A stretch of DNA of 44,189 nucleotides from a virus: the IMG/VR virus record IMGVR_UViG_3300033145_000280, positions 1 through 44,189 of that record; one strand, written 5' to 3'. This document shows, one piece after another, positions 3 to 34,804 of the stretch. Position 1 is the first letter of the stretch. Each line of letters begins with the position of its first letter. The translations under genes and the position numbers were made by a program. The notes below the pieces were generated by a model. That model saw only the letters and a program-made list of their open reading frames with translations, was not told the origin of the DNA and did not search any database.

Positions 3-1709
3 CAACAGAACATGCTTAATCAATATGGAAAACTACCTTTCTCAGTAGTGTCTTCTAACTGGATCACTGAAGAGCTTACTGGAAAGACTGCCGCGCTTCC
101 AGTAGTACTACCTGGAGTAGATAAAGATATTTTTCATAGAGGAGACAGGCAACAGGGAGATGATAGGTTTACTATTCTAATGCCTCTAATAGGTACCTAC
201 TGGTTTAAAGGAACAGACAGAGGTATACAATTAGCAGATTATTTGTTTAAATTATTTGATCAAGCAGAAGAAGAACTACGTATCCTTGCTTACGGTGCTT
301 CACATGTACCTACTGTGCCTAGAATTACTTGTTTAGGGGACTTAAGTCAAGCGAGAATTGCATACATACTTCAACGAGAGATAGATCTTTTTATAGATCC
401 TAGCTATATTCACTCATATGGAATGCCATCAGCAGAGGCACTAGCTTCTAATGTAAGAGTAATTAGCTGGGACAATAAAGGTATTCATGACGTAGCTACT
501 GCAGGATACACAGTGTATGATAATGAGATGTCTCCTAAAGACCTAGCTCAGAAAATATTTGATGATAGAGATACATCATGGCATCCTTTTGATCCTGAAG
601 TACTAGATAGAAAGGATGCAGTTCAACAATTCATCAGTGTCTTAGAAAAACGATATTTACTTAGAGCAAAACGACATAAGATTAATGTCATTACTCCTCA
701 TGCACGTAAGCATGGTGGACCGACAACCATTATTAACTTAGCTAATATTCTCCAGCATCTAGGACATACTGTAAATCTAGTAGTTAATTATGCAGATTTC
801 AAAGGTGAGATCTTAGATATGTGTAATGTTGAAATCTATACAGACTGGCAACACGCTCCTAAATGTGACCTTATGATTATTAACTCAGACAATCCTTTTG
901 CTGAAGAGATGATGGCAAATGAACCTCATGCAAAGAAAGTTATGTTTAAGTTAAGTCATAACGCTAGGTTTAAAGTAATAGAAGAAGGCAACCTAAGACT
1001 ACCTGTGTGGGATAACATCATGTGTTCAACAACTCCTATGGTAGAAGCAACAAAGAAACCTATTGATGACTCATGGAAACACATCTCTTGGCCGAATGAT
1101 AAGGTAGATAGAGTAGGATGGTATCACTATACGCATCCTTTGTTTAACTGTCTTCCACAGAATAGAACATACGGTACTTTAGGAGGAGAAAATCAAGTTG
1201 TCATAGGAACTTTAATCCATCCGCATCCTCTTAAAGGAACTAAGATGGCACTAGCAGTTATGGAAGCACTAATAAAAAAGTATGGTGCTAAAATACACTG
1301 TCTTGGATTTGGTGAATGTAAATTTGGCGATCAACCATCATGGATGGAGTATATCTATAATGCTACTAGAGTAGAATTAGCCCAGTGTTTTAGACACGTA
1401 GACATCTGGATCAATGCTTCTCACACTGAAGGACTAGGAAGAATTCCTCTAGAACTAATGTCATCTGGAGCCTGTGTTGTTGCATCTGATACAGGAGCAG
1501 AGTTCTTAGAAGACAGGAAGAACTGTCTATTGTACCCTATTGATGATGCTCAAGCATGTGCTGTACGAGTAAATAAACTACTTACTGATCCTAATTTATT
1601 TACTACCTTAGCACTGGCTGGACATAAGACAGCACAAGAGGCAGGAGATCCCTTGACATATACTAATAATATTGCTAGAATTATTGACAAGATTATGGAG
1701 GAGAAATGA
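3..1709 (+). CDS. Tandem GT4-type glycosyltransferase, 5' partial
   Basis: The reading frame is open to the left edge, so the gene starts outside the window; the first in-window Met is at 12. Numbered from that Met, residues 1-215 look like the C-terminal half of one GT-B/GT4 transferase (nucleotide-sugar side, with PSAEAL near 139-144). A second, complete GT4 unit follows from about residue 224 (N-terminal GGPTTIINLA). The second unit keeps the E-x7-E signature of retaining GT4 enzymes (E473 and E481). In the first unit the leading Glu is replaced by His134, so that half may be inactive or altered. It probably transfers two sugars in sequence to a glycan in the cytoplasm. The next gene overlaps its stop by four bases. 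Family is confident; donor and acceptor are unknown. Confidence 0.88.
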   Translation, partial: QQNMLNQYGKLPFSVVSSNWITEELTGKTAALPVVLPGVDKDIFHRGDRQQGDDRFTILMPLIGTYWFKGTDRGIQLADYLFKLFDQAEEELRILAYGASHVPTVPRITCLGDLSQARIAYILQREIDLFIDPSYIHSYGMPSAEALASNVRVISWDNKGIHDVATAGYTVYDNEMSPKDLAQKIFDDRDTSWHPFDPEVLDRKDAVQQFISVLEKRYLLRAKRHKINVITPHARKHGGPTTIINLANILQHLGHTVNLVVNYADFKGEILDMCNVEIYTDWQHAPKCDLMIINSDNPFAEEMMANEPHAKKVMFKLSHNARFKVIEEGNLRLPVWDNIMCSTTPMVEATKKPIDDSWKHISWPNDKVDRVGWYHYTHPLFNCLPQNRTYGTLGGENQVVIGTLIHPHPLKGTKMALAVMEALIKKYGAKIHCLGFGECKFGDQPSWMEYIYNATRVELAQCFRHVDIWINASHTEGLGRIPLELMSSGACVVASDTGAEFLEDRKNCLLYPIDDAQACAVRVNKLLTDPNLFTTLALAGHKTAQEAGDPLTYTNNIARIIDKIMEEK

Positions 1710-2470
1710 ACATTACTAGAGGTGTAGCCATCTGTCACTACAATAGGTTAGTACACCTAGGTAAAATTATTCAAGCAGTTAAAGATACTGTACCTGAAGA
1801 TACTCAGATAGTTGTGTGTGATGATGGGTCTAATAACTCTGAAGGAGAGGTAGCAGTCAATGTTGGTGACATCTGCAGAGAGCATGAAGTTCTCTTAATT
1901 CAAGGACCTAACCTAGGTGTAGCTGCTAATAAAAATAGAGGATTATGGGCACTAAAGAATAAGCATTTCATTTGTATTCTAGAAGATGACCTAATCCCGA
2001 TAGAGAAAGGATGGTTTGAAGCGTATGAAAAAGCAACAACCTTCTCAAACATCAACCACTTCTGTAGAATCCAAGACAAAGAGATTCCAGAAATTGTTCC
2101 AGCCTTTAAAGAATACATGGAAACACATGGACTATCACCTATCTACGCTTCATCACCCAGAGGCGACCTCACTTTTATTACTCATAATGTAGTTAAAAAA
2201 GTAGGAGGATTTAATAATAGTTTCCGTGGCGCAGGATATGCCCACGGTGAATGGAGCGGTAGAGTATACAAAGCTGAACTCATTGGACACCCTCGTAAAT
2301 GGGTTGATATTAAAGAAGCTAGAGATAAGTTTGAACAAATTGGAGACACCACAGGAGGGCGATGGAACGACAACGAACAAACAATACGCAATCAATTAAA
2401 GAAGAATGACAAGCTATTAAAAAAACTAAAGAATAACCCATATGTATTTCATCCTATCGTATTAGAATAA
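1706..2470 (+). CDS. GT2-family (GT-A fold) glycosyltransferase
   Basis: A 254-aa protein with the GT-A inverting fold signature: an N-terminal strand followed by DDGS (residues 39-42), the GPNLGVAANKNRGL loop (67-80) that orients the nucleotide sugar, and a metal-binding LEDD (92-95, the DxD equivalent). There is no membrane segment, so it is soluble and acts in the cytoplasm. It starts inside the stop of the preceding transferase with GGAGG upstream, which implies translational coupling and a shared pathway. The C-terminus is Lys-rich and helical. The sugar donor cannot be read from sequence. Confidence 0.9.
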   Translation: MNITRGVAICHYNRLVHLGKIIQAVKDTVPEDTQIVVCDDGSNNSEGEVAVNVGDICREHEVLLIQGPNLGVAANKNRGLWALKNKHFICILEDDLIPIEKGWFEAYEKATTFSNINHFCRIQDKEIPEIVPAFKEYMETHGLSPIYASSPRGDLTFITHNVVKKVGGFNNSFRGAGYAHGEWSGRVYKAELIGHPRKWVDIKEARDKFEQIGDTTGGRWNDNEQTIRNQLKKNDKLLKKLKNNPYVFHPIVLE

Positions 2471-2480
2471 GGAGAATATT

Positions 2481-2663
2481 ATGCTATCTGAAGATACTAT
2501 TGAAGAAGCAATCAGACTTATTGAACATTGCCTTGATAAACTAGGAGATCTAGACTCATCTATTGAAGGATGGATTGAACTATTAGATGTTGCTTCAGAT
2601 GAAATTACTGTAGCACGAAACGCTGCTAAGTGTGATTTAGAGGATGACTTTGACAGGGAGTAA
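2481..2663 (+). CDS. Small acidic helical protein, unknown function
   Basis: This 60-aa protein has a strong AAGGAG ribosome-binding site at good spacing, so it is probably real. It is acidic and predicted all-helical (many Glu, Asp, Leu, Ile) with one Cys. Its 3' end overlaps the start of the deformylase gene by 20 bases. I recognise no family. It could be a small partner of the flanking enzymes. Confidence 0.7.
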   Translation: MLSEDTIEEAIRLIEHCLDKLGDLDSSIEGWIELLDVASDEITVARNAAKCDLEDDFDRE

Positions 2664-3279
2664 TTTAACATGGAAAACTGCTGAAGGTATCTCTCTTCCA
2701 GCAATAGAACCTAAGACGTTAGACGTAGCTATCTTCCCTCTACATGAGAAGGTTCTACGTACTATCTGTACTGAGGTATCAGAAGAAATTGCTAGAGGAG
2801 ATGACTTTAGGAAGCATGTAGCGTTCATGTTATGTACACTTTATGATACTAAAAAACCAGGCGTTGGGTTAGCTAGTATTCAGGTCGGTTTACCTCTCAG
2901 AGTTATCGTTATTGACACTGAGTGGCCGCACACAATGAAAACTAACCCTAAGGTACTGCTTAATCCTGTGATCGTAGGGGAAGAGGGGACACAAGAGAGC
3001 CGAGAAGGGTGTCTCTCTATCCCCCTCAATTACAAGAACATTATAAACAGACACGCTAAAGTTACAGTAGGAGCAATTACTCTAGACTGGGAGCCAATTA
3101 GCTTTGAGGCAGAGGGAATTGAATCAGCGGTCATACAACATGAGATAGATCACCTTAATGGGAAGCTCTTTATTGATCACCTATCTAGACTAAAGAGACA
3201 AATGTATTTCAAGAAGATTCTTAAGTACGCAAAGAAAGGATACTACGCACATAAAAATGGACATATTAAAAAGCCCTGA
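2644..3279 (+). CDS. def: Peptide deformylase
   Basis: The protein carries all three peptide deformylase motifs: GVGLASIQ (residues 73-80), EGCLS (121-125) and QHEIDH (165-170), so the metal ligands Cys and two His and the catalytic Glu are present. The family removes the formyl group from N-terminal Met of new proteins; phage and cyanophage versions are known. At 211 aa it has about 20 extra N-terminal residues and a basic C-terminal tail. The ATG at 2644 has AGAGG directly against it with no spacing, while a better AGGGAG at about 2656 precedes an ATG (2670) in the wrong frame that stops after four codons, so the start is uncertain. It sits in a glycosyltransferase operon, which is unusual. 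Confidence 0.93.
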   Translation: MTLTGSNLTWKTAEGISLPAIEPKTLDVAIFPLHEKVLRTICTEVSEEIARGDDFRKHVAFMLCTLYDTKKPGVGLASIQVGLPLRVIVIDTEWPHTMKTNPKVLLNPVIVGEEGTQESREGCLSIPLNYKNIINRHAKVTVGAITLDWEPISFEAEGIESAVIQHEIDHLNGKLFIDHLSRLKRQMYFKKILKYAKKGYYAHKNGHIKKP

Positions 3280-4153
3280 GTTTCAAATCATTGTTCAACT
3301 ACTAGGACCTGACTATCTCTGGTCTGCTTCACGTAACTATGGAGACGGCGATGTTATTAAAGGTGCAGCTAAAGCCTATGATGAAACAAGAAAGATCATT
3401 CGTAAATTAGTTAATCAAGCCAGAGAACGAGAACGTAAGCCAGGTGAAAGACTACCTAGAGATTTGGAATTCGCTCTTCTTGTCAAGAGCTTAGGGTGGC
3501 CTTTATTCAGCACTGTACCTGAATTGAAAGAGATAAAAGATGAAGGATGGAGAAGCCTTGCTGCTGCATTCTGGCCTAATGGTACACCTATTCAGGGTGG
3601 AGCATTCGTAGATGTAGGAAATGCCACCTACGATGATGTGTACATAGCTACCATTAGAGCAACTTCGATGATGTTAAAAACATATGACTACACCAATCGA
3701 GCCGTCCTAGATAATAGGGTGTGGCAGCGAGGCGATCCTAACGTACTAGTACACTTTGAGGTACGGAATGATTTAAGGTCAATGATTTTAGATGGTTCTC
3801 AAAGAAATGCTACATGGATTAGACGAAAGCTAGGGAGAGGATTAAGATCAGCAATTAAATTTAGTAAATCAGACATGGGTAAAGTCTCTACTAAGCTCAT
3901 GATAGAGTGGGCCAGAGCAGGATTCATAGGATCACCAGCAGGAGCCATGATCTCAGGCTGTCCAGGTGCTACCTATGGATGGGGGGCTCTTGCTCCTGCT
4001 AATGGTATCCCTCTAGTAGTATGTATTAACAAAGTATTAGACGGTAAATGTTTCCTAGGAGTCACACCAGATCACAGGGCATTCGATGGTAAGGTTGCCA
4101 GTAAACTGTATGATTACCTAGGACCAAAAGTGGAGGAACTAGTAAATGACTAA
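3257..4153 (+). CDS. Stand-alone E2-type (CAT-fold) acyltransferase
   Basis: The C-terminus has the active-site signature of 2-oxoacid dehydrogenase E2 catalytic domains, DHRAFDG (residues 272-278), where His is the general base and Asp-Gly closes the site. It is preceded by a Gly/Pro-rich strand region (about 230-260) like that before the E2 active site. The 298-aa protein has no lipoyl domain and no E1/E3-binding domain, so it cannot be a full E2 subunit. Known members of the fold transfer acyl groups from CoA or lipoamide as trimers. In this operon it may acylate a sugar or lipid; interference with the host pyruvate dehydrogenase core is an alternative. It overlaps the deformylase by 23 bases and the dehydrogenase by 8. 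Confidence 0.75.
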   Translation: MDILKSPEFQIIVQLLGPDYLWSASRNYGDGDVIKGAAKAYDETRKIIRKLVNQARERERKPGERLPRDLEFALLVKSLGWPLFSTVPELKEIKDEGWRSLAAAFWPNGTPIQGGAFVDVGNATYDDVYIATIRATSMMLKTYDYTNRAVLDNRVWQRGDPNVLVHFEVRNDLRSMILDGSQRNATWIRRKLGRGLRSAIKFSKSDMGKVSTKLMIEWARAGFIGSPAGAMISGCPGATYGWGALAPANGIPLVVCINKVLDGKCFLGVTPDHRAFDGKVASKLYDYLGPKVEELVND

Positions 4154-4814
4154 CACATTAATCATCGGTGGAAGTAAAGGACTAGGAGAAGTAATTGCAC
4201 AATATTGTAATGACAGAGCACATGATGTCACATGTCTCAGCCGTAGCACCGATCCTAATCTAGACCTTAATTGGAATGGACCTACTATTATCAGTAGAGT
4301 TAGAGGAGTGATCAGAAACATGGGAGGCATTGATAATTTAATTGTTTCTTCTGGTCACGGTATCTATCTTAACCCTATTGGTAACTCAGAAGACGTAGAA
4401 GAAACTCTTAGAGTCAATCACACCGGACCCATCTTTGTCTTCCGTGCTGCCTTGAAGGGTTTGCTGAAGAGTCAAGGTAAGGCTTGCATGATCACCTCTA
4501 CATGCGCTAGGAAGCCCGGTTCAGGGGGTTTGAGCGTTTATGGCAGTTCTAAGGCCGGACTCAATGGGTACGTACTAAATGAGTCCCGAAGAGTTTCAAG
4601 AAAGGGAATTGCCCTTTTTGCGGTGTCCCCAGGGTGGTTTGAAGGCCCGATGGTAGAAGATTTAAATGTTAAGGCTAGAGAGGCTGCTGAGAAGGCTATA
4701 CCCTTTGGGAGGTTTGGAAACATGGAGGAGATAGCCAGATTTACTGTTAGTCTACTTGAACAATCTAACTGGTGTGTAGGAGGACAAATCTTTGAGTGTA
4801 GCGGAGGACTCTAA
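4146..4814 (+). CDS. Short-chain dehydrogenase/reductase (FabG-like)
   Basis: A 222-aa classical SDR. The Rossmann glycine motif is GGSKGLG (residues 8-14), the NAG-equivalent is SSGHG (68-72), structural Asn91 is present, the catalytic Ser is 118 or 119, and Tyr132/Lys136 form YxxxK. PGWFEGPM follows (162-169). It should be an NAD(P)H-dependent oxidoreductase of a keto or hydroxyl group, such as a nucleotide-sugar or acyl intermediate. GGAGGA precedes the start, and the gene is coupled to neighbours on both sides. One line within 4441-4720 counts about 58% GC against about 43% at the gene start. Confidence 0.9.
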   Translation: MTNTLIIGGSKGLGEVIAQYCNDRAHDVTCLSRSTDPNLDLNWNGPTIISRVRGVIRNMGGIDNLIVSSGHGIYLNPIGNSEDVEETLRVNHTGPIFVFRAALKGLLKSQGKACMITSTCARKPGSGGLSVYGSSKAGLNGYVLNESRRVSRKGIALFAVSPGWFEGPMVEDLNVKAREAAEKAIPFGRFGNMEEIARFTVSLLEQSNWCVGGQIFECSGGL

Positions 4815-5710
4815 TGAAGATAGCATTCGCACATTATAGATTCCACTATGAGGGCAGAGAAGTAGCTACCTATGGTAAGTGTATGGTCAGAGAACTCAGA
4901 GCCCGAGGTCATGAAGTCACTGAAATTCCTAAGACTCGCTTTAAAGATGACAATCAGTATAAACAATTTGACTTACTAATAGACGTAGACTCTGGACGTG
5001 ATATGAATGGAGACTATGGTTGGCATCTTCATGATGCTCCTGTACCTATCCCAAGTGTAGCATTCTTTATTGATACGCACGGTAAAACAGATCTACATGC
5101 TAGAATATCTAGACGTGCGGACCATGTATTCTTTGCTGTCTGGGATAAAAGAAACGTATTCGCTGATCATGACTCTGCTCATTGGTGTCCTAACTTTACA
5201 GACTTAGAGTTCTTTGATAGAGAGCAACATAAGGAAGCAGTTCCTAAGTTTAACTTCGGCTTCTTTGGATCTAAGGGAGGATTGGATAGAGCTGATCCTA
5301 TGATTGCCTTAGCACAAAAGTATAACTGGACCTATGATGTTAGACAGATTAGTATAAAAGGAAAGCATCAATGGCCTAGAACAGCAGAAGCGATGGCTAA
5401 TTGTAAGGTGCTATGGAATCATGGACAGAAGCACGACGATCCAAATTTACGGGTGTTAGAAAGTATGGCTATGGGTAGAGTCTTAATCAATCCTCAAGAT
5501 GATCGTTCAGGGATCGGCTACTTATTCGAGCCGTGGATCGACTACCTACCCTACGTTCCTTATACATGTGAAGAGTTATTTGAACGTATGAAATTTGCAA
5601 TTAACCGACTTGATGCCTGTGCTAAAATAGCTGAGAATGCCTATCAAAAGGTGATTCATAACCATCTCACTAAACATAGAATCAAGCAGATAATGGAGGT
5701 AGTTTCATGA
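4814..5710 (+). CDS. GT-B glycosyltransferase (Glyco_trans_1_2-like)
   Basis: A 298-aa protein whose C-terminal half has the nucleotide-sugar binding helix typical of GT-B group 1 enzymes: DPNLRVLESMAMG (about 209-221) followed by a short strand and NPQDD. The N-terminal half is a Rossmann-like acceptor domain with several His/Asp loops. It is shorter than most GT4 proteins, as in minimal phage transferases. It starts within the TAATG overlap of the dehydrogenase stop, with GGAGGA upstream. It is probably cytoplasmic and in the same glycan pathway as its neighbours. Confidence 0.82.
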   Translation: MKIAFAHYRFHYEGREVATYGKCMVRELRARGHEVTEIPKTRFKDDNQYKQFDLLIDVDSGRDMNGDYGWHLHDAPVPIPSVAFFIDTHGKTDLHARISRRADHVFFAVWDKRNVFADHDSAHWCPNFTDLEFFDREQHKEAVPKFNFGFFGSKGGLDRADPMIALAQKYNWTYDVRQISIKGKHQWPRTAEAMANCKVLWNHGQKHDDPNLRVLESMAMGRVLINPQDDRSGIGYLFEPWIDYLPYVPYTCEELFERMKFAINRLDACAKIAENAYQKVIHNHLTKHRIKQIMEVVS

Positions 5711-6441
5711 TCGTCCCGCTCATCATGGTTTGTAACGAAGCCTATTTTTTACCTTACGTACTCGAATCTATCTCTGATACCTTTGAACGTATAGTTATCT
5801 ATGATATGAATAGTGAAGATGACACTCCTAAAATTATTGATTGGTTCATGGACAAAGAAACAGACACTGAATTCTTTATGAGAAAGCTACCTTATTGTAG
5901 TCCTGGTGTCCAGGGGGCTCTTAGGAACGCGATGATTGCTGAAGCAAGGTCTGACTCTTACATATTAATTGATGGGGATGAGATCTATCATCCTAGACAT
6001 TCAATTTGTTTACCTCAGTTAGGAGTGGATTTACTAGAAGCACACCGTACAAATAGAAAGAAACGATACGGAGTCATTAGACGTATTGAACTTAGTACTG
6101 ACCTAACAGAACGCTATGATATAGAGAGAGATCATCATAGATTCTACACCAGAGATGCTATCTGGATGAGGTCGCACCCCGGAGAAAGAGCTTTCTATAA
6201 GCAGAACCATAAGAGTGAAGTAAACATGAGGAGCAGTGCTAAACTATACCACTTCCACAACGCTCTACGCTCACCCTATGAGGATAGAGTACCAGGACGC
6301 AAGAACAGAAAAGCCCAAGGATCATATCACCCCGGGCACCTGCAACCGTTTGATTTATTAGATGAACTACCTATCTTACGTAACCCTATAGAGGATTGGC
6401 CTGTCTCACCTGCACTAGAAAAGTTGCAGAATGATTATTAA
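5707..6441 (+). CDS. GT2-like (GT-A fold) glycosyltransferase
   Basis: This 244-aa protein begins like inverting GT2 enzymes with V-C-N-E (8-11), has NSEDDT (35-40) after the second strand, and a metal-binding DGDE (89-92, extended DxD). Conserved His residues near the C-terminus (LYHFHNA) resemble the catalytic tail of Glyco_tranf_2_4-type proteins. GGAGGT lies six bases ahead of the start and the gene overlaps its predecessor by four bases. It is the last large gene of the + strand operon. Substrate unknown. Confidence 0.85.
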   Translation: MIVPLIMVCNEAYFLPYVLESISDTFERIVIYDMNSEDDTPKIIDWFMDKETDTEFFMRKLPYCSPGVQGALRNAMIAEARSDSYILIDGDEIYHPRHSICLPQLGVDLLEAHRTNRKKRYGVIRRIELSTDLTERYDIERDHHRFYTRDAIWMRSHPGERAFYKQNHKSEVNMRSSAKLYHFHNALRSPYEDRVPGRKNRKAQGSYHPGHLQPFDLLDELPILRNPIEDWPVSPALEKLQNDY

Positions 6442-14186: not shown

Positions 14187-14684
14187 TTAAGTATTCTCCT
14201 TCATTATATAATGTACTACTCTCATTCCAGGCTTAAACCCAAATCTAATAGTAGCGGCATACTTTTCTTCATTAGCAGGGTCAGTAACTGACCAAAGAGA
14301 ATCAAAGCCCATAGTTCTTAAAATATTAACTGCTTTAGTTCGTAAAGCTGTAGATACTCCTTTACCTCTAGCAGATTCTTTAACATAAAGTCCCCAGCCG
14401 TTTGCTTGTCGTCCATTCACATTTTCAAATAACAATTCACCAGGATCTCCATACATTAATACTCCATCTTCCGCGTGGAAAAGTACAGTTCCATCCAAGT
14501 CACCCGAAACATATACGTTAAACATCCTTTCAAAAACTTCCATATTGTGCTCTGTAGCCGCAACACCTCCTGCCGCCAAGAGCTGCTCATCTGATAAATA
14601 CTCTTCCCAAAGCTTTCGAAATAGCCCAAGATCGCCAAGTTTTGCTCTCCTAATTTTAATCTTATTTTTTCGTTCCTTCCCCAT
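14187..14684 (-). CDS. GNAT-family acetyltransferase in the T7 gp13 position
   Basis: A 165-aa GNAT fold protein. Motif A is RGKGVS (residues 106-111) in the acetyl-CoA pyrophosphate loop, preceded by the strand GWGLYVKE, and a later GFKPG fits motif B. It lies between the nozzle and the gp14-like gene, exactly where T7 has gene 13, whose product is needed for internal core assembly; as I recall, the T7 gp13 family is grouped with acetyltransferase folds. It may acetylate a virion or host protein or serve as an assembly factor. A promoter motif lies about 30 bases upstream. Confidence 0.85.
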   Translation of the reverse strand: MGKERKNKIKIRRAKLGDLGLFRKLWEEYLSDEQLLAAGGVAATEHNMEVFERMFNVYVSGDLDGTVLFHAEDGVLMYGDPGELLFENVNGRQANGWGLYVKESARGKGVSTALRTKAVNILRTMGFDSLWSVTDPANEEKYAATIRFGFKPGMRVVHYIMKENT

Positions 14685-22410: not shown

Positions 22411-22800
22411 TTAAGTCAATTCAACATCGAATGAGGAATCTCCTTCTGCTATGTATTCAACTACTTCAGTATCATTATCTGCGCCACCGACAATATCACC
22501 TTCTTCATCAATAGTCATCAGATAAAAATGCGCTGTGCTTTTCGTATAAGTTACCATACGAATAGGAGCAGTAGTCCCAGTTAAAGCACCACTATTTTCA
22601 TCACCAACGCGCAAAGTAATACTATCAATAGCAGTTAAACCAAGATCAGTAGCTGTAAGAACTTCACCTTCACCACCAGCATAGGCAGTAACATTAATAC
22701 TACCGACCACCTTAGTCTTCCCTTGCTTGGGATTACCTAATACATCACGCCCAGAGCCAGGAAGGAATTGTCGAAATGTTTCTCGAATTGTTCTAGCCAT
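22411..22800 (-). CDS. Small virion protein, tandem paralogue A
   Basis: A 129-aa protein. Its first 35 residues (MARTIRETFRQFLPGSGRD and on to NPKQGKT) are almost identical to those of the next gene upstream (22813-23184), and both end in a SxYDVEL/SSFDVEL motif. The N-terminus is helical and basic; the rest is beta-rich and acidic. It lies under its own late promoter with a terminator behind it, which suggests high expression, as for a capsid decoration protein. Function not shown. Confidence 0.82.
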   Translation of the reverse strand: MARTIRETFRQFLPGSGRDVLGNPKQGKTKVVGSINVTAYAGGEGEVLTATDLGLTAIDSITLRVGDENSGALTGTTAPIRMVTYTKSTAHFYLMTIDEEGDIVGGADNDTEVVEYIAEGDSSFDVELT

Positions 22801-22812
22801 TATCTATTCTCC

Positions 22813-23184
22813 TTAACCTAACTCTACATCATAAGCAGAGTCGCCTGTGGCCTGATACTCAAGAGTCTCAGTATCAGCATCATCGTATTCATCAGGAATG
22901 CCTGATTCCCCTACCTTATACAGATAAAATACATCATTCACCTGACTATAAGGAGCAATACGGTATGAACTGGGGCCAGCAACTGCATTAGTTGGTCGCA
23001 AATTAATCCAATCAATTCTAGATAAACCAAGCTCAGTAGGTGCCAATGCTTCTCCACCACTAACATAACTAGTGACAGCAATCTGACCTTCTACCCGAGT
23101 CTTCCCTTGCTTGGGATTACCTAGAGTATCACGTCCAGAGCCAGGGAGAAATTGGCGAAATGTTTCTCTAATTGTTCTAGCCAT
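22813..23184 (-). CDS. Small virion protein, tandem paralogue B
   Basis: A 123-aa protein, first gene after the promoter at 23288. It shares the N-terminal 35 residues and the C-terminal DSAYDVELG end with its neighbour (22411-22800), while the middle differs. This pattern suggests a tandem duplication with divergence of an exposed beta region. Probably a structural or decoration protein; no catalytic motif. Confidence 0.82.
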   Translation of the reverse strand: MARTIRETFRQFLPGSGRDTLGNPKQGKTRVEGQIAVTSYVSGGEALAPTELGLSRIDWINLRPTNAVAGPSSYRIAPYSQVNDVFYLYKVGESGIPDEYDDADTETLEYQATGDSAYDVELG

Positions 23185-25434: not shown

Positions 25435-26055
25435 TTATGCCGCTCTAGTTATTAAACCATGATCGTAGAGTGCTTGTTGGTATCCTTTGTCATATTCTGA
25501 TTGTTCATTTAATCCTACGTGGCTCCATGTTCTTCCCTTGTAAATAGCTTGAATTGTAGCTCTATGCACTCCAAATTGTTCTGAGATAGTCTGATATGAC
25601 ATAGTTTCATCTTTTAATAATTGTTTAATCTTAATTACATCTCCTTTACTAAGACGTGTATTACCAGCCACATATTCGCCTTTCTTAACACCAAGTTCAC
25701 CGTGTGCTCTACGAGATAAACATTGAAGATTGTCTAAACAATTATTCTCTTTATTACTATCAGTATGATCTATCTGATACGTCTTAGGGATTGGCTCATT
25801 AAAAGCCTCCCAAACTACCCGATGCACAAGAAAAGCTTTTACCTTGCTATTCTTACTTAAAAAACACCTAAGATACCCACCTTTATCATAGTGTAACTTT
25901 AACACACGACCAGTCTGATTATGAATTCTCTTCCTTCCTGTCTTTTTATATTCTACTTGTTGTTCAAACTTTCTTGAAAGCGAACGCACAACTCCTTGAT
26001 TACTTACTTCATAACAATCTTCATATCCAATAACCGATTTCCAAAGTATAGACAT
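25435..26055 (-). CDS. HNH homing endonuclease (NUMOD4-HNH-HTH)
   Basis: A 206-aa protein. Residues 4-26 match NUMOD4 (WKSVIGYEDCYEVSNQG), residues 76-118 an HNH_3 nuclease core with His78, IDHTDSNKENN (95-105) and NL (109-110), and about 140-175 a helix-turn-helix DNA-binding end. It is free-standing, with its own promoter, between the capsid gene terminator and the promoter of the next cluster. Such genes nick or cut related phage DNA near the insertion point and spread by recombination. It is a selfish insert and not a virion part. Confidence 0.92.
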   Translation of the reverse strand: MSILWKSVIGYEDCYEVSNQGVVRSLSRKFEQQVEYKKTGRKRIHNQTGRVLKLHYDKGGYLRCFLSKNSKVKAFLVHRVVWEAFNEPIPKTYQIDHTDSNKENNCLDNLQCLSRRAHGELGVKKGEYVAGNTRLSKGDVIKIKQLLKDETMSYQTISEQFGVHRATIQAIYKGRTWSHVGLNEQSEYDKGYQQALYDHGLITRAA

Positions 26056-26193: not shown

Positions 26194-27408
26194 TTAGTAA
26201 GTCGGTAAACTCAATCCTGTAATTTTTCCACATTGATTCAGATAACGACCTATTGTTTCCGTATAAGTCTTCATGAGAACAGTAAACGAATCGGCTCCGG
26301 GGATCCACGCCATGTTAACTCTTTCGTCTATGCTGAATGGCCTTACAACGCCACGCTCAATCCCACCAAGATTGATGAAGAATACCTGATCAGGTAGTGC
26401 GGCCCAAGTTACCAGCCACGGACGACCTTCAAAGGTGGTTACTTCTTGCTTTGCACCTAGCTCTAATGTCATATCATTAAAGCGTCGGAACGGAAGCGCA
26501 ATCTCAGTATACCGATCATACTGATCATGGTTTGAAAGCATAACAAAGCCTTCAAGATTCTCTACTGCTGTCTCAATCATCAGTCGCTTGCGGAGCCTAC
26601 GTAACATCGACTCGTCCAGAGCGGTTGATCCTGCAGCAATTACCTGCGATTGTAGAACGGGAAACGAAGTACGAGAAATATTGTAAATCGCCCCAGTTGC
26701 ACTTACGAGAGCAGGAAGACCAAGAGCGGTAACTTCTACCGGAGGAGCAGAACCAGACTGCTCACCAGCAATATACACTCCATCATTATCAGCTACAGTT
26801 ACACTTGCCGCCAAAGTCATTGTAGAATCAGCAACACTTCGACTAGTAACTCGTACCGGGCCAGAAGTAATAACGCCTGTAGTATTACTCATAGTGACAA
26901 TTACCTGCCCATTACGAATAGTACGTGCGTCATCTACTGTGATAGTAGAAGCAGTCGTTCCACCAGCTTCATTAACATTAGTGATCCGACCAGTACCGTC
27001 ACCCCGTAGGAATGTAGTTTCGAAATTAGCTCCAGCTCGTTTAACAGCTTGACTAATAGCATCAGTAATTCCAGCAGCAAAGGCATCTTCGCCTCCGCGC
27101 TTAGATACTGCTTCGGCCAAACCTGAGAAAGTAACTGTATGATAGTACTTTTTCACTTCGACCTTGGCTGACTTGATTTGTTCATTACCTGCGGCGGGAA
27201 GGGTATTATCATCCTTCGAACGCCAACCTCCACCCGACTCATTACCAGCGATGCGGACAGCGAAAAATGCGCCCTCACCGGAAGGTTGGAACCGAGTGTT
27301 CTCCTTTAGCCTACTATGCACAGGTGAAGATAATTGCTGCATTTGCCCAATAAAATCAACCACATAGCGCCGTAGGAGCATGTCACCTAAAGTAGCAAAG
27401 GTTTCCAT
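26194..27408 (-). CDS. Major capsid protein, HK97-fold
   Basis: A 404-aa protein. It follows the scaffold gene and precedes a terminator, as in T7 gene 10. The sequence fits an HK97-fold coat: a helical N-terminal arm (1-45), a long beta strand region with GNESGGGWRS near 54-63, a spine-helix segment (about 100-130, EDAFAAGITDAISQAVK), a beta-rich insertion (about 150-230), and a C-terminal A-domain ending in a strand pair. No signal or membrane segment. AAGGAG precedes the ATG. Confidence 0.88.
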   Translation of the reverse strand: METFATLGDMLLRRYVVDFIGQMQQLSSPVHSRLKENTRFQPSGEGAFFAVRIAGNESGGGWRSKDDNTLPAAGNEQIKSAKVEVKKYYHTVTFSGLAEAVSKRGGEDAFAAGITDAISQAVKRAGANFETTFLRGDGTGRITNVNEAGGTTASTITVDDARTIRNGQVIVTMSNTTGVITSGPVRVTSRSVADSTMTLAASVTVADNDGVYIAGEQSGSAPPVEVTALGLPALVSATGAIYNISRTSFPVLQSQVIAAGSTALDESMLRRLRKRLMIETAVENLEGFVMLSNHDQYDRYTEIALPFRRFNDMTLELGAKQEVTTFEGRPWLVTWAALPDQVFFINLGGIERGVVRPFSIDERVNMAWIPGADSFTVLMKTYTETIGRYLNQCGKITGLSLPTY

Positions 27409-28588: not shown

Positions 28589-30715
28589 TTATCTCGTCTG
28601 CACCGGGAACAGCGTCAGCGTGACGGTTCCCATGAAGTTTCCACCATCACTACAGTCACTAGCGTCAGCAGCATGTAGAGCCAACGCTTCATTAGCAGTA
28701 AGCAGCTCCATCAGAGGTACAGTAGTTGCTTCTCCTGCTGTATTAAGCGTCTCGCCGTTGCCCCATGTGATCGTCCCTTGACTACCAGCTACGTCAGTAT
28801 ATCCAGCAGGAGCGGTTGTATCTCCTCCGCTTCGCAGACTAAAACTGCAGCCGGTTGTTGATGCCGCGTCGTCATTCGTCCACATGCTCAGGTAGGCGGG
28901 ATAGTAACTATTTGACATCGACGAACCTGCGGGTCCGATCATGTTCACGGTGTTCTCGTAGGAGGTATTCCCCCACAAGCCAGTGGTGAAACTTAGGGCC
29001 TCATCCGTCCCTGCAGTGACTGGCTCATCGTTCACGTTCACATGAAGCACCACCGCTCCCTGATGTCGCACGTAGGCGTATTCCGGTGGCGGGACCGTCC
29101 CGCCGTCCACCCAGGCGTGAGTGATGTCCACGATGCCGGTCGCATCAGAATGGTGGTTGAACATCCGGTAATCGTCTCCTTCGCCCGGATCGACATCGCT
29201 GCCCGCGAGAAACGCCCAGAGCTGGAGGGAGTCGCCCGACGTATCACCGAAGGTCTTGCCTACGATGATGTCGTCGAATTCCTCGCTGTCCTTCTGTGCC
29301 GCGATAGCCCCGGTGACCTTGATGTCGCGAAATTGCGTATCCCCTGACGGGTAGTTGCACACCGCGCCGCCGTGGTCCGTATCGAACACGCAGGGGCGGA
29401 AGTTCCCATCGAAGTCAGACGTTCCCGCCCCGACGATGAAGCTATGCCCGTCCGATGTCGCGCCGCCGCCCTCGCTACGGAATCGGATGAAGTCCTGTCC
29501 GGTGCCGTTGAAGATAACCACCCCCCCGAAGTCGTTGCCGTTGTGCATCGTGATGTCGGTCCACGACTGCCGCCGTGCGCCCTCGAAAGCGCCGCGCGCA
29601 TCACAGGACGTGCCGCCCTTGGCACAATCTGCCGAGACTGACAAGACCGACCCGGTGTAGGGCTCGCCGATCACGACGTTCACGTTGTTGTCTTCGATCT
29701 GGCCGCTGCTCCATCCGCCGCCGATGTGGTTGCCAGTCGAGTAGACCCCTACCCCGAACCGGGTGATGTTCATCCTGCCACGATGTGAGTTGATAAAGCC
29801 GACCCCGGTCAGCATGTAGCCGATGTTGTCGTTGTCTCTAAATACTGTATGGTCAACGCCATTGCCCTGTAAGCTTGGTGCCCACTCACTGAGGTCCGAG
29901 TAGTAGACACTATCCTCCCAGACGGCGATGGAAGAAGTGACCGACCCATGCAGGACATCGGTCGAGTCTATGACCGGGATATGCCCTGCTGCCCATCCGA
30001 CGGAGGAGCAAGTTCCTCCGGTACAGTCCCCGTTGATGAGGCATGTCTCTCCATCATCTCCTCCACCACCGGAGCATCGCAGAGTTGCATCCGAGTCGCT
30101 GAGGAACGTGATCCGAGGAGATCCGGAGAGCTTGATCTTCTCGACGGCGACGCCGGGATTCATGGCACCGCTGTCGTATTTGTATCCCACCTCATGGGCG
30201 CACCCGATCTTGACTACAACCACCCCAGGGTCTTCAGCCCCGAGGGTTACGTCCACGTTGAGCCGACTCAGGTCAAGCTCGAACTGGCCGTTGAAGTTCA
30301 TAATGAAGGAGTCCCCACCCGAAGTGCCTCCTCCGTACGGGACCGGGTAGTTCCCATTTTTCTCGTTGCTCGGGCAGATGTATATGCCGACATGTCGCTC
30401 ATTGTCCACCGTCGGGATCTCGTAGAAGTCGTCAATAGTAACGTCGATATCGCCGACGACTATTGCCTTCTGGATGGTCCTGTCGTCTGCCGTTCCCCAG
30501 CAGGTTTGTACCCCGTCGCAGGTATTGTCGGTATCGACAATCCTGTCGATGATGGCACCCATGATGTAGTCGAACGGGTCCGCCATCCCATCGACGTTGA
30601 TGAGGATCTCCGTCTCGGTGGCCCAGCCACCGATACCGACCCCACCTATAGTAATACTACTATTTACTGGTGTAGCTATAAAAAGTGCTATGACTATAGC
30701 TATAAGATACTTCAT
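28589..30715 (-). CDS. Secreted Cys-rich beta protein, high-GC insert
   Basis: A 708-aa protein with a signal peptide (MKYLIAIVIALFIATPVNSS, residues 1-20), no other membrane segment, and about 20 Cys, several in short pairs (for example C-L-I-N-G-D-C-T-G-G-T-C). Gly/Ser/Asp-rich repeats of strands in the middle suggest a beta-helix or beta-solenoid, with a beta-sandwich C-terminus. The signal-peptide DNA is AT-rich like the phage, but the rest is GC-rich (one 60-base line at 29581 is 65% GC), so the passenger part looks imported. It could be a surface adhesin, tailspike-like protein, or secreted effector. Confidence 0.72.
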   Translation of the reverse strand: MKYLIAIVIALFIATPVNSSITIGGVGIGGWATETEILINVDGMADPFDYIMGAIIDRIVDTDNTCDGVQTCWGTADDRTIQKAIVVGDIDVTIDDFYEIPTVDNERHVGIYICPSNEKNGNYPVPYGGGTSGGDSFIMNFNGQFELDLSRLNVDVTLGAEDPGVVVVKIGCAHEVGYKYDSGAMNPGVAVEKIKLSGSPRITFLSDSDATLRCSGGGGDDGETCLINGDCTGGTCSSVGWAAGHIPVIDSTDVLHGSVTSSIAVWEDSVYYSDLSEWAPSLQGNGVDHTVFRDNDNIGYMLTGVGFINSHRGRMNITRFGVGVYSTGNHIGGGWSSGQIEDNNVNVVIGEPYTGSVLSVSADCAKGGTSCDARGAFEGARRQSWTDITMHNGNDFGGVVIFNGTGQDFIRFRSEGGGATSDGHSFIVGAGTSDFDGNFRPCVFDTDHGGAVCNYPSGDTQFRDIKVTGAIAAQKDSEEFDDIIVGKTFGDTSGDSLQLWAFLAGSDVDPGEGDDYRMFNHHSDATGIVDITHAWVDGGTVPPPEYAYVRHQGAVVLHVNVNDEPVTAGTDEALSFTTGLWGNTSYENTVNMIGPAGSSMSNSYYPAYLSMWTNDDAASTTGCSFSLRSGGDTTAPAGYTDVAGSQGTITWGNGETLNTAGEATTVPLMELLTANEALALHAADASDCSDGGNFMGTVTLTLFPVQTR

Positions 30716-30740
30716 TTGATTACTCCACTATTTGATGTTA

Positions 30741-31481
30741 TCATTCAGCGTTGAACGAAACCGCGAACGCCCGGTAACCATCTTCGGGCTCTAGCGTCCA
30801 CTCTTGGTCGCCTGTGGGATTGTCAGGTATTTCCCACGCGACACCTACGGCCACATTGCCCGAGCTGGAACCTACCAAGATCCAGCAGTCATCATCTTCT
30901 ACGAACCCGCTGGGACAGGTAAGAACGTCGGTGGTGTAGCCATCAGCGAGGTCGATGTACATCGCCAGCGCGCCGGTATCCACAGCAATGCTGAGAGATG
31001 TTTGTGCCGTACCGCTGCCGCTATTCGCCGAGTGGTTATCTAGGATGTCCCCGCTGTCGTGCCCTGTGATCTTACATATTCCACCCGTGGATTTTTGGCT
31101 TCCGGTCCAACTGACGGTATATGTCGGGTCTTCGCCTTCGCTGTCTGCCTCTCTGTACCACAGTCCACCGCATGGTTGACCCTGAAAGTCATCGAAAGCT
31201 ACGACCTCCACCCACGTTCCCGCAATCCCAATATCGGTACATGAGGGGTCACCTCCCACAAACGCGACCATCAGGTCGCCATCCGAAATGTCGAGCGTGC
31301 CTGTCGTATAATCGTGAGAAGTCCCTCCGGATTCGTCGTCTACCAGTTCGCACCCGGTGAGGGTAATGCCGCCGCCCTCCTCAACAACGGGAGGAGGTCC
31401 CCACACAGTAGGCGTACCACTCCCATAATCCAGCCCCATTAACACAAATGACAATAATAGTAAGCCTAACCTCTGATTCAT
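30741..31481 (-). CDS. Secreted beta-sandwich protein, high-GC passenger
   Basis: The best start is the ATG at 31481, overlapping the preceding stop as ATGA, with AGGA upstream; the TTG 15 bases further up is less likely. This gives 246 aa. Residues 1-20 are a signal peptide (MNQRLGLLLLSFVLMGLDYG). The mature part is acidic, Gly/Ser/Thr-rich and has about six Cys, with a strand pattern like concanavalin-type domains (GDLMVAFVGGD, TYTVSWTGSQ). The first ~90 bases are AT-rich and the rest GC-rich, as in the gene that follows. Confidence 0.72.
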   Translation of the reverse strand: MNQRLGLLLLSFVLMGLDYGSGTPTVWGPPPVVEEGGGITLTGCELVDDESGGTSHDYTTGTLDISDGDLMVAFVGGDPSCTDIGIAGTWVEVVAFDDFQGQPCGGLWYREADSEGEDPTYTVSWTGSQKSTGGICKITGHDSGDILDNHSANSGSGTAQTSLSIAVDTGALAMYIDLADGYTTDVLTCPSGFVEDDDCWILVGSSSGNVAVGVAWEIPDNPTGDQEWTLEPEDGYRAFAVSFNAE

Positions 31482-31969
31482 TCTAATCCTGAACAATCAT
31501 CCAAACAACCTTCGCCATCACAAACCTCACCTGTATCTACTACATCGTCACCACAATGAGCAGGGTGACAATAGGTACGACAAGCATCAGGTGTGATGTC
31601 GGAGTTAGAGCCGCCGTCATCACAAATTTCACCAGCTAAAGTATCAATTTCATTATCACCACAAACAGCATCTCGAAGTGGGGAAGGGAAATTATTAAGT
31701 ACCTCAGCAACTCTATCACTGACTTCAAGTCTAGCTGCTTTCTGTGTCACTCTGTCAGTAATCTTCCTAACAATCGTCTCTTCTCCAATACGAATCAACA
31801 TAGAGCCACATTCAGAATTAGTTGGATCTTTAGCACCATAAATGACCGCCAAGTAGTCACAGACAATCTGCAGATCATCTACAGAAGTGGCAGGTACAGT
31901 AACTGAAAACGTAGCCCCCCAAGCCGGTAGAGCTAATGACAAAAATAAAGGTATAATTAAAAGTTTCAT
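31478..31969 (-). CDS. Secreted protein with two Myxococcota-type disulfide repeats
   Basis: A 163-aa protein with a signal peptide (residues 1-19, cut after AWGA) and two copies of the CGD-x-x-x-D-x-GE-x-CDD-type repeat at 103-134 and 139-159, the TIGR02232/DUF4215-like myxo disulfide repeat known mainly from Myxococcota and related bacteria. The middle (30-100) is helical. It lies just after the 943-aa fibre-like gene (three-base gap) and its stop overlaps the start of the next secreted protein. Four Cys per repeat imply oxidative folding outside the cytoplasm. Confidence 0.82.
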   Translation of the reverse strand: MKLLIIPLFLSLALPAWGATFSVTVPATSVDDLQIVCDYLAVIYGAKDPTNSECGSMLIRIGEETIVRKITDRVTQKAARLEVSDRVAEVLNNFPSPLRDAVCGDNEIDTLAGEICDDGGSNSDITPDACRTYCHPAHCGDDVVDTGEVCDGEGCLDDCSGLE

Positions 31970-31972
31970 ATT

Positions 31973-34804
31973 TTATTCTCCACTAAATACATCATCAACA
32001 TCATAACAAAACCGGACTGCTAATAGCTTAGCGTCCTGAGTATAATCATCCTCACTAGCACACCCAGTAGGAGTACCAGCCACGTCTCTAAAAACCTTAA
32101 CAATAGCACGCTGGCTCTTAACCATACTGTGAGTAAAAGTAACCGGGGCGCTGTACATAATATCACCATCAAGGATACAAATATCGTTTGCGCCATTAAC
32201 AGTACCTGCTAAAGTACCAGCCTCCCAAGCACCGTCATCAGCGAAAGAGTCACCATCAATCTGCCAGCAAACGTCATCTGCGTCATTCTCGTCACAGTCA
32301 GTATGGTCAGAATGCCAAACAAAGGTTACGGCTGCTGTAGTACCAATCATATTATCCGGCAACTCAAATGCCCACGTCGCTGCACTATCTGCTCCGGTAG
32401 CAAAGTTCATAGTACGATAATCGTGCGTACCACCGACAATAGTCTCAGTCGTACAACCCCCAGTGCCGAGGCAATTACCGCCAGTAGCATCAAGCATCAC
32501 ACACTCAGTAGGGAAGTTATTGGTAATCTCTATTCCACCTGTGATACCAGTAATCGCAAAATCAATCGCAGAGACAGTACCATCTGAAGTAATATTACCT
32601 ACACCAGTAATAACACCAGCAACGTCAATAGCCCAATCACTAGACTTTAGCTCTAATGTATCTCCACCATCTCCAACAGTTAAAGCAGCAGAAGGGTTGA
32701 TAGTGTTAATAATTTGGGTGGTATTTGCCACCACCGTAAGAACTCCAGCATCTTCAGTAGCCGAAGCTAGGGCTCCTCCTACAGTACAATTAACACTAGC
32801 ATTTGCTGCTCCTGTAAAACAAAGGACATCACCATCTGCTGGGGCTGTTAAAGACACATTAGTAACATCATCAAGATCAGCAGCAGCAGGAATATCAGTA
32901 CAATTAGTACAGTCAATAGCAGGCTCAGCAACCCACGCCGGATCATCTGCACCTGCCATAAAAACATCATTAGCGCCGCCTAATGCTACAGCCTCCCACT
33001 CACCACCAGCATCACCTACAATAATATTACCACGAGTTTCAGCAAGACCGCCTAGAAGAGTTAATTCAGTATCAAGAGGCTGTATCAATAACTCTGCTAA
33101 TGTCTGCCATGAGAAGTCATTGCCAGTATCATCGAATGTGAGGATGTCATTGTTAGTAGCTTCATTATCAGCATCAAGGTCAATTTCTAAAATTGTATCA
33201 TCATCAATATCACCAGTAACAATTGCACCAAATGCTGGGTTACCAGCAGCATTTCCGTGTAGAACAGTAGTAGTAGAACCTTGATTTTCGAAGTGTGAAC
33301 TTGCAAGAACCAGATCAATCTCTGTACAAGTTAGAGTATTGGGGGCATCATCGGCAAATACAATGGTCTCATCAGTGGGACATACGGGGATAGCAGTATA
33401 AATAACATCGTTACTTGTACTGCCAATAGGAATTTCTGTGTCTTCAATATCAGTAGCTACAGTTTCTAGGTTATTAACCTCAGAAGTCAGGAGACCAAGC
33501 TCTGTTGGAGTCTGCCATGAGAAGTCATTGCCAGTATCATCGAATGTGAGGATGTCATTGTTAGTAGCTTCATTATCAGCATCAAGGTCAATCTCTAAAA
33601 TAGTATCATTAGCAATACCGCCAGTGACTATACCTGTAAGATTAGCTCCACCACCAACAAATTCGGGAGCAGTTAAAGTTCCTGCATTAGGATTATATGC
33701 AAGATCACCGTCTACCTCTGCACCAGTTGCTCCACTTCCTGATGCTCCAGCACTAAACCAGACAGGATTTTCCTCCGTCTGTGCTTCATTGTCTGTAATA
33801 GTAACGGTTGTTGCGAGTGTGGCAAGATTAATGGTGATAGTGTTAGGTACTTCTCCATCCGCAATACAGTCAGAACACCCAGAATAAATATCAGCATCTA
33901 AAGTACCATCAGTAATACTTAACCCATCTCCTTCAAGGTCAGTAACCGGAGAAGCATCAGTAACAATACCAAGCTCTGCTAGAGTCTGCCATGAGAAGTT
34001 ATTCCCGGTATCATCAAATGTGAGGATATCTCCATCAGTTGGATCAGCCTCATCTACATCAAGATCAATTTCTAGAATTGTACCGTCAGTAATCTCTCCT
34101 GTAACAATACTACTATCAGCAATAATAGCCAGATCAGCTTCAGTCACTGTCATCGCATCAGTCTGTAAAGTTAACTCAGTAGCACTTGCAGAACCAATCT
34201 CAATCGTACCAGTATGTGCTCCTCCAAGTTTAACTAAAGGCACTCCACCACCAGCACCACCAGTAATATCAGCATCTACACTTAAGTACTCCACCAAAGA
34301 AGACGCAATCTGAGTCTTAAAAGTAACATCAACATCTTCTTGACCATCATCTAGATCAGTCGCCTGAGCATAAATACAAGCATCATCAGTCTCTGAAGCT
34401 GAGTCCTGATCGTCCATACAGAGAGAAGGAGTACTAGTTGCAACAGTAGCAATGTTAGCCCCAAAACTAATTAGACCGTCACTAAAAGTAATAGTAGGAT
34501 CATTAGCCCCAGAGAGAGGGATTGTCCACGTCAGAGTGGCACTTGAACCGTCTTCAACATAGATAGCATCGAGCCTCTTGTTAGTGCCGTCTTCATGAGT
34601 AAACCAAAGAGTCCCAGGATCATCACCACTATTGACCCAAAGCTGTCCATAGCCAACGATATCTCTTTGTGCATCAGACTGTTCAAATAGATAAGCACTA
34701 AGACCTTTCAAAATAGTCGTAGTCCCATAATCTGTACGTGCCAAAGCAATACCTGAAATACAAATTAACGATAGAACAATACCTATGATTACTTTTTTAT
34801 TCAT
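31973..34804 (-). CDS. Secreted tail-fibre-like repeat protein
   Basis: A 943-aa protein with a signal peptide (residues 1-22, ending IALA-R). It carries at least three copies of a module with ILEIDLD and ILTFDDTGNDFSWQTLAEL (one pair encoded by 82 identical bases), as in phage fibre repeats, and a C-terminal beta-sandwich with Trp and Cys resembling fibre tip domains (about 770-940). The signal peptide is unexpected for a tail fibre and suggests export. It is the first gene after promoter copy 6. Confidence 0.75.
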   Translation of the reverse strand: MNKKVIIGIVLSLICISGIALARTDYGTTTILKGLSAYLFEQSDAQRDIVGYGQLWVNSGDDPGTLWFTHEDGTNKRLDAIYVEDGSSATLTWTIPLSGANDPTITFSDGLISFGANIATVATSTPSLCMDDQDSASETDDACIYAQATDLDDGQEDVDVTFKTQIASSLVEYLSVDADITGGAGGGVPLVKLGGAHTGTIEIGSASATELTLQTDAMTVTEADLAIIADSSIVTGEITDGTILEIDLDVDEADPTDGDILTFDDTGNNFSWQTLAELGIVTDASPVTDLEGDGLSITDGTLDADIYSGCSDCIADGEVPNTITINLATLATTVTITDNEAQTEENPVWFSAGASGSGATGAEVDGDLAYNPNAGTLTAPEFVGGGANLTGIVTGGIANDTILEIDLDADNEATNNDILTFDDTGNDFSWQTPTELGLLTSEVNNLETVATDIEDTEIPIGSTSNDVIYTAIPVCPTDETIVFADDAPNTLTCTEIDLVLASSHFENQGSTTTVLHGNAAGNPAFGAIVTGDIDDDTILEIDLDADNEATNNDILTFDDTGNDFSWQTLAELLIQPLDTELTLLGGLAETRGNIIVGDAGGEWEAVALGGANDVFMAGADDPAWVAEPAIDCTNCTDIPAAADLDDVTNVSLTAPADGDVLCFTGAANASVNCTVGGALASATEDAGVLTVVANTTQIINTINPSAALTVGDGGDTLELKSSDWAIDVAGVITGVGNITSDGTVSAIDFAITGITGGIEITNNFPTECVMLDATGGNCLGTGGCTTETIVGGTHDYRTMNFATGADSAATWAFELPDNMIGTTAAVTFVWHSDHTDCDENDADDVCWQIDGDSFADDGAWEAGTLAGTVNGANDICILDGDIMYSAPVTFTHSMVKSQRAIVKVFRDVAGTPTGCASEDDYTQDAKLLAVRFCYDVDDVFSGE
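33103..33184 (-). repeat. 82-base exact repeat, copy A
   Basis: Identical to 33511-33592, offset 408 bases (136 codons), in the same reading frame. A diverged third copy starts at about 33985. It encodes the FDDTGNDFSWQT module. Recent duplication or gene conversion is likely. Confidence 0.9.
33511..33592 (-). repeat. 82-base exact repeat, copy B
   Basis: Second copy of the repeat at 33103-33184, identical over 82 bases; the flanking sequence differs. Confidence 0.9.

Follow-up and report, generated by a model that had tools for sequence, protein, structure and literature searches.

Judged by sequence comparison, a protein encoded within a glycosyltransferase operon of a phage is remotely homologous to the E2 catalytic domain (PF00198), with a similarity that is too weak for standard family searches. 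The window, i.e., the whole stretch of DNA that was analyzed, is a 44,189-base IMG/VR phage record (hereafter, the contig) with portal and major head genes. The protein should be called “E2-core-like” (E2L), and not an E2: it does not pass the curated PF00198 test and lacks the parts that define an E2 subunit. Our favored explanation, which we hold with moderate confidence, is that E2L is a diverged, single-domain acyltransferase of the E2/chloramphenicol acetyltransferase (CAT) fold, which sits in a cargo slot of a glycan operon and acylates a sugar or a small precursor through His273. An acyltransferase of this sort is unusual in a virus, yet the principle is known. If this explanation is right, a virus has put the E2 core fold to use in a glycan operon, apart from its complex; such a case would extend the set of enzymes with which phages decorate sugars, and that of metabolic core domains reused as small-molecule acyltransferases.

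The E2L gene carries a normal coding signal, with GC contents of 0.53, 0.44, and 0.31 at codon positions 1, 2, and 3, respectively, and a codon usage that fits frame 0 (Table 1). Its start overlaps the upstream peptide deformylase (PDF) gene, and its end overlaps the downstream SDR gene; these overlaps on both sides point to one translated unit.

Table 1. Features of the glycosyltransferase operon and of E2L (window positions unless a locus is given)
Feature	Position	Strand	Basis or remark
GT4-family glycosyltransferase, cut by contig end	12..1709	+	PF13692; homologue in relatives ~1040 aa
GT2-family glycosyltransferase	1706..2470	+	PF00535; 46-61% identity to relatives
Peptide deformylase (PDF)	2644..3279	+	PF01327, E 1.1e-39; homologues at same junction in 10 relatives
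E2-core-like protein E2L, 298 aa	3257..4153	+	ATG start, intact ORF with coding signal; best genome matches are E2 proteins
E2L N-terminal ~115 aa, predicted helical	3257..3601	+	Replaces lipoyl/binding domains and first part of E2 catalytic domain
E2/CAT-like core of E2L, residues ~124-295	3626..4141	+	phmmer alignments and pLDDT
E2L residues 218-249, expected site of TIS(N) oxyanion strand	3908..4003	+	pLDDT <50; alignments disagree
DHRAFDG, E2 catalytic motif (His273, Asp277), residues 272-278	4070..4090	+	Invariant columns in alignment A6
SDR (FabG-like)	4146..4814	+	PF13561, E 2.4e-22; 8 nt overlap with E2L
Glycosyltransferase “GTc” (Glyco_trans_1_2)	4814..5710	+	PF13524; relatives found
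GT2-like glycosyltransferase “GTd”	5707..6441	+	PF00535; relatives found
GTc/GTd cargo in relatives: HpcH/HpaI aldolase-like protein, UDP-sugar dehydrogenase, IMPDH-HAD pair (two contigs)	L157:9576-11279, L168:9043-10684, L169:9059-11475

Sequence resemblance of E2L to E2 cores

Searches of E2L against Pfam, PHROGs, and NCBIfam returned no E2-relevant match at E ≤ 1, and no relative was found among the PDB sequences. Specifically, E2L does not reach the curated PF00198 cut-off (23 bits) and gives no match to this family even at E ≤ 1, and PF00198 is absent from the whole contig at E ≤ 0.001. Proteins like E2L therefore go unrecognized by every standard family search used here. The sequence-only reading had described an E2-type protein without its carrier parts, and this absence is borne out: neither the lipoyl domain (PF00364) nor the E1-type domain (PF02779) was found anywhere in the contig, and the E1/E3-binding domain (PF02817) was not found in E2L.

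We compared E2L with an E2-core profile made from 59 fetched E2 cores, with the phage protein not among them. The whole of E2L scored z = 5.05, which was reached by none of 2,000 shuffles and exceeded all 279 control phage ORFs, and residues 113-298 scored z = 5.85 (0/2,000 shuffles and 0/406 controls). Most of this signal comes from the C-terminal 94 residues (z = 5.28), and the helix-strand-strand-helix part alone gave z = 2.98. Homology of the PF00198 type extends beyond the catalytic motif, as evidenced by alignments over residues ~129-293, in order, with the three E2 proteins described below; it is weaker in the profile comparison, where the score falls to z = 2.35 (43/2,000 shuffles) when the DHR motif region is left out.

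A genome search independent of E2 profiles, with E2L as the sole query, covered 395 + 388 + 396 + 350 = 1,529 bacterial genomes and returned 13 matches at a per-genome E ≤ 0.01. Four of these are E2-type proteins (L137, L141, L144, and L149), including the best match (L137, E 3.4e-6). The first three each carry lipoyl, E3-binding, and PF00198 domains, and phmmer aligned them in order to E2L residues 133-288, 129-293, and 132-284, respectively, whereas L149 aligned over residues ~240-284, across a DHRAVDG motif. In a control with the reversed E2L query (390 genomes), a single match was obtained, which the E2 profile did not recognize. The chance of four E2 matches among 13 is ~7e-12 by a simple binomial in which each 3.3-Mb genome is given about three E2 cores, placed at random; this figure is to be read as an order of magnitude only. 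The identity of E2L to any E2 is ~20-26%. Altogether, the genome matches, the negative reversed control, and the profile scores uphold the earlier claim that the E2-type resemblance is real.

The searches of viruses, plasmids, and 1,529 bacterial genomes yielded no close relative of E2L, and the open-access literature searched yielded no paper describing a phage gene of this kind. The DNA pattern for PDHRAFDG occurred at three IMG/VR loci, whose ORF listings hold no E2-like protein; a degenerate DH[RD]..DG scan matched 65 stretches with no E2L relative among them, and tblastn of E2L in phages and plasmids gave chance matches only. A tblastn match in Rhizobium was rejected as a relative because it lies in an ABC transporter ATPase, and matches in Acinetobacter “phages” with aceF/pdhC look like host contamination. 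We also discarded an acyltransferase-SDR fusion in phages: the SDR of the window aligns to residues 289-518 of phrog_3142, and E2L has no match to phrog_3142.

Active site, predicted structure, and likeness to known enzymes

E2L carries the DHRxxDG motif of PF00198 with both His273 and Asp277, and D272, H273, D277, and G278 are invariant across A6, an alignment of E2 cores with 60 rows. That the motif is kept despite an identity of only ~20-26% suggests selection on the active site. The position of the transition-state Ser/Thr on the TIS(N) strand varies with the alignment (Met231, Ser233, or an Ala), and the predicted model has a pLDDT below 50 there; Met231 and Ser233 are among the candidates for the oxyanion position.

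AlphaFold on the single E2L sequence was useless (pLDDT 35), and with A6 it produced a model with pLDDT 65 and pTM 0.58, reaching pLDDT 80-91 over residues 121-200 and 79-91 over residues 261-298. The order of elements in this model (helix, strands, helix, strand, hairpin, DHRAFDG, helix) is the CAT order. When the model was compared with the PDB using Foldseek, E2 cores ranked first (best E 1.1e-3) and chloramphenicol acetyltransferases next, at query-normalized TM-scores of only 0.3-0.4; a viral library gave nothing convincing. Since E2 rows formed the input alignment, both the model and the Foldseek ranking are partly circular. As such, the kinship with E2 cores and CAT that the sequence-only reading proposed to check by structure is reproduced in rank, but by a model that fails without the E2 rows. 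The placement of the active-site histidine fared similarly: sequence, alignment, and the partly circular model agree that His273 is probably positioned correctly for a catalytic role, but the oxyanion strand is not placed.

The N-terminal ~115 residues are unlike E2 and have no family match and no recognizable relative. Within this part, a helix at residues 31-57 is modeled at pLDDT ~77, and MAFFT aligns the “RKIIRKLV” stretch of E2L with the “RKxIAxRM” helix of E2, a correspondence that is only suggestive.

Compared with the E2 catalytic core (PF00198; Escherichia coli AceF/SucB), E2L shares the DHRxxDG motif with its His and Asp, the in-order alignment, and the predicted CAT topology. It differs in that the lipoyl and E3/E1-binding domains are missing, the first part of the core is unrecognizable, the final hairpin is short, the similarity lies below the family cut-off, and the contig holds no E1-type gene. 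Chloramphenicol acetyltransferase (PF00302) appears to belong to the same fold class, as judged by Foldseek on the partly circular model, but it carries HHxxxDG where E2L has DHRAFDG and ranked below the E2 cores, and E2L gave no PF00302 match.

Stand-alone E2 proteins, compared through their fetched sequences, resemble E2L in architecture; such loci were seen at L007-L010 and L052. The haloarchaeal/bacterial proteins annotated as “2-oxo acid dehydrogenase subunit E2” (L007, L008, L010, and L055) are, like E2L, single-domain proteins, of ~260-275 aa, with GW..xP and DHxxxDG ordered as in E2L, but they have DHD instead of DHR, and the pairwise E is only 0.02 for L007. Tetronate pathways use an E2-type protein that stands alone (Agg4, QmnD3, and AbmA4) to acetylate a hydroxyl (PMC5819245, PMC7489565). 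L009 and L052, where KASIII, FkbH-like, ACP, and stand-alone E2 genes lie together in a set similar to that of tetronates, are likely O-acetyltransferases of this type. E2L, like these enzymes, is an E2 core without carrier domains encoded beside biosynthetic genes, but pairwise similarity to them is at the motif level only (E 0.001 for L009), and its neighbors are PDF, SDR, and glycosyltransferases rather than FkbH, ACP, KASIII, and a dehydratase, which sets it apart from the Agg4 type.

The glycosyltransferase operon and possible roles of E2L

The neighbors were said to be glycosyltransferases and an SDR, which proved correct: the gene lies in a four-glycosyltransferase operon, and 35 further IMG/VR contigs, including a few near-duplicates, show the same GT4-GT2-GTc-GTd succession (loci L027-L051 and L152-L190; the window counterpart is 12-6441). 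The GT2/GTc junction is closed in 20/35 relatives (gap of -22 to -1 nt), and in 10/35 it contains a PDF, in several beside an HNH endonuclease, which may explain insertions at this junction. In the window, the same junction holds PDF, E2L, and SDR, and the metal/catalytic motifs of the PDF are intact (GVGLASIQ, EGCLS, and QHEIDH). The GTc/GTd junction of some relatives contains nucleotide-sugar dehydrogenases, a methyltransferase, an aldolase-like protein, and IMPDH and HAD proteins. Given these varied genes, we consider both junctions to be cargo slots of the glycan operon, in which sugar-tailoring genes are prominent but not alone; since other cargo (PDF, IMPDH, HAD, and HNH) is not obviously sugar tailoring, position by itself is no proof of a glycan role. 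The search for the gene in related phages that the sequence-only reading had called for came out negative: protein, PF00198, and E2-profile searches found an E2-like gene in 0/35 related operons, and an SDR homologue was not found in them either.

According to our favored explanation, E2L would have been carried into the cargo slot together with the deformylase and the SDR. The acyl donor would be acyl-CoA (or host acyl-ACP), and the acceptor a sugar or small precursor on which the operon works, acylated at a hydroxyl or amine; His273 of DHRAFDG would act as general base, as in the stand-alone E2 cores of tetronate biosynthesis. The analysis shows the ORF, its homology to E2 cores, the operon, the cargo position, and the absence of carrier domains; from these we infer catalysis, the donor and acceptor, and a phage-made glycan as the product. 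The earlier suggestion that E2L may acylate sugars, lipids, or proteins is strengthened by analogy with known E2 cores that work on their own in the O-acetylation of small molecules. A more specific version, in which PDF, E2L, and SDR form one pathway, with an amino sugar losing its N-formyl group (or another acyl group) to PDF and gaining a different one from E2L, strikes us as very improbable; if true, the phage would re-dress a sugar by means of an E2-fold enzyme, which would be the first described for glycans.

Alternatively, E2L and the FabG-like SDR could be a small acyl-handling pair, with an acyl chain loaded or moved by E2L (as acyl-ACP/CoA) and reduced at a 3-oxo group by the SDR; instead of acylation of a finished sugar, the outcome would be a hydroxyacyl or lipid-like modification. 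The overlap and co-occurrence of the two genes, the FabG-type best match of the SDR, and the ACP genes adjoining the E2-like proteins in L009 and L052 agree with this. However, any SDR usually gives FabG-like matches, the contig genes examined include no recognizable ACP, ketosynthase, or adenylating enzyme, and E2L and SDR occur together in one contig only; we regard such a pair as doubtful. It is also unlikely that E2L has kept the fold and is no longer an acyltransferase, acting instead in binding, as a scaffold, or as a pseudoenzyme: the unplaced oxyanion residue, the strong divergence, and the unrecognizable N-terminal part would fit, but the whole of DHRxxDG is retained in a protein otherwise so far from E2.

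Chance occurrence of DHRxxDG in an unrelated protein is very improbable, since the unbiased genome matches (three of them aligned in order over the core), the rough binomial, and the reversed control argue against it, even though the lack of a database family match, the C-terminal concentration of the profile signal, and the failure of the model without E2 rows speak for it. Finally, the earlier proposal that E2L mimics the host E2 core finds no support, and a mimic or dominant-negative that enters or disrupts the host PDH/OGDH complex is very unlikely: the core fold is predicted to be common to E2L and the trimer-forming E2 domain, but identity to every E2 is low, the N-terminal catalytic part is unrecognizable, lipoyl and subunit-binding parts are lacking, and the gene lies among glycan genes with PDF and SDR.

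Other features of the contig

Several further genes, all on the minus strand, were noted. A GNAT acetyltransferase (14187-14684; PF00583, E 1.7e-6) lies between virion genes, separate from E2L, and a NUMOD4/HNH homing endonuclease (25435-26055) lies just downstream of the gene for the major head protein (26194-27408). Four consecutive proteins with signal-peptide-like starts occupy 28589-34804, and Pfam gave no match for the three of them that were scanned; one of the four (31478-31969) has Cys-rich repeats of the CGD..D.GE.CDDG type, which we take to be reminiscent of myxobacterial/deltaproteobacterial surface proteins. A very long fiber-like protein (40150-44187), cut by the contig end, contains repeated GPGFYGVIFKESESGGAVFRDDTLVVDSxYFYLTSDGS units. 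In addition, two adjacent paralogous small proteins (22411-22800 and 22813-23184), both starting MARTIRETFRQFLPGSGRD, match one homologue each in G004 and G005, so that they probably arose by tandem duplication in the window.
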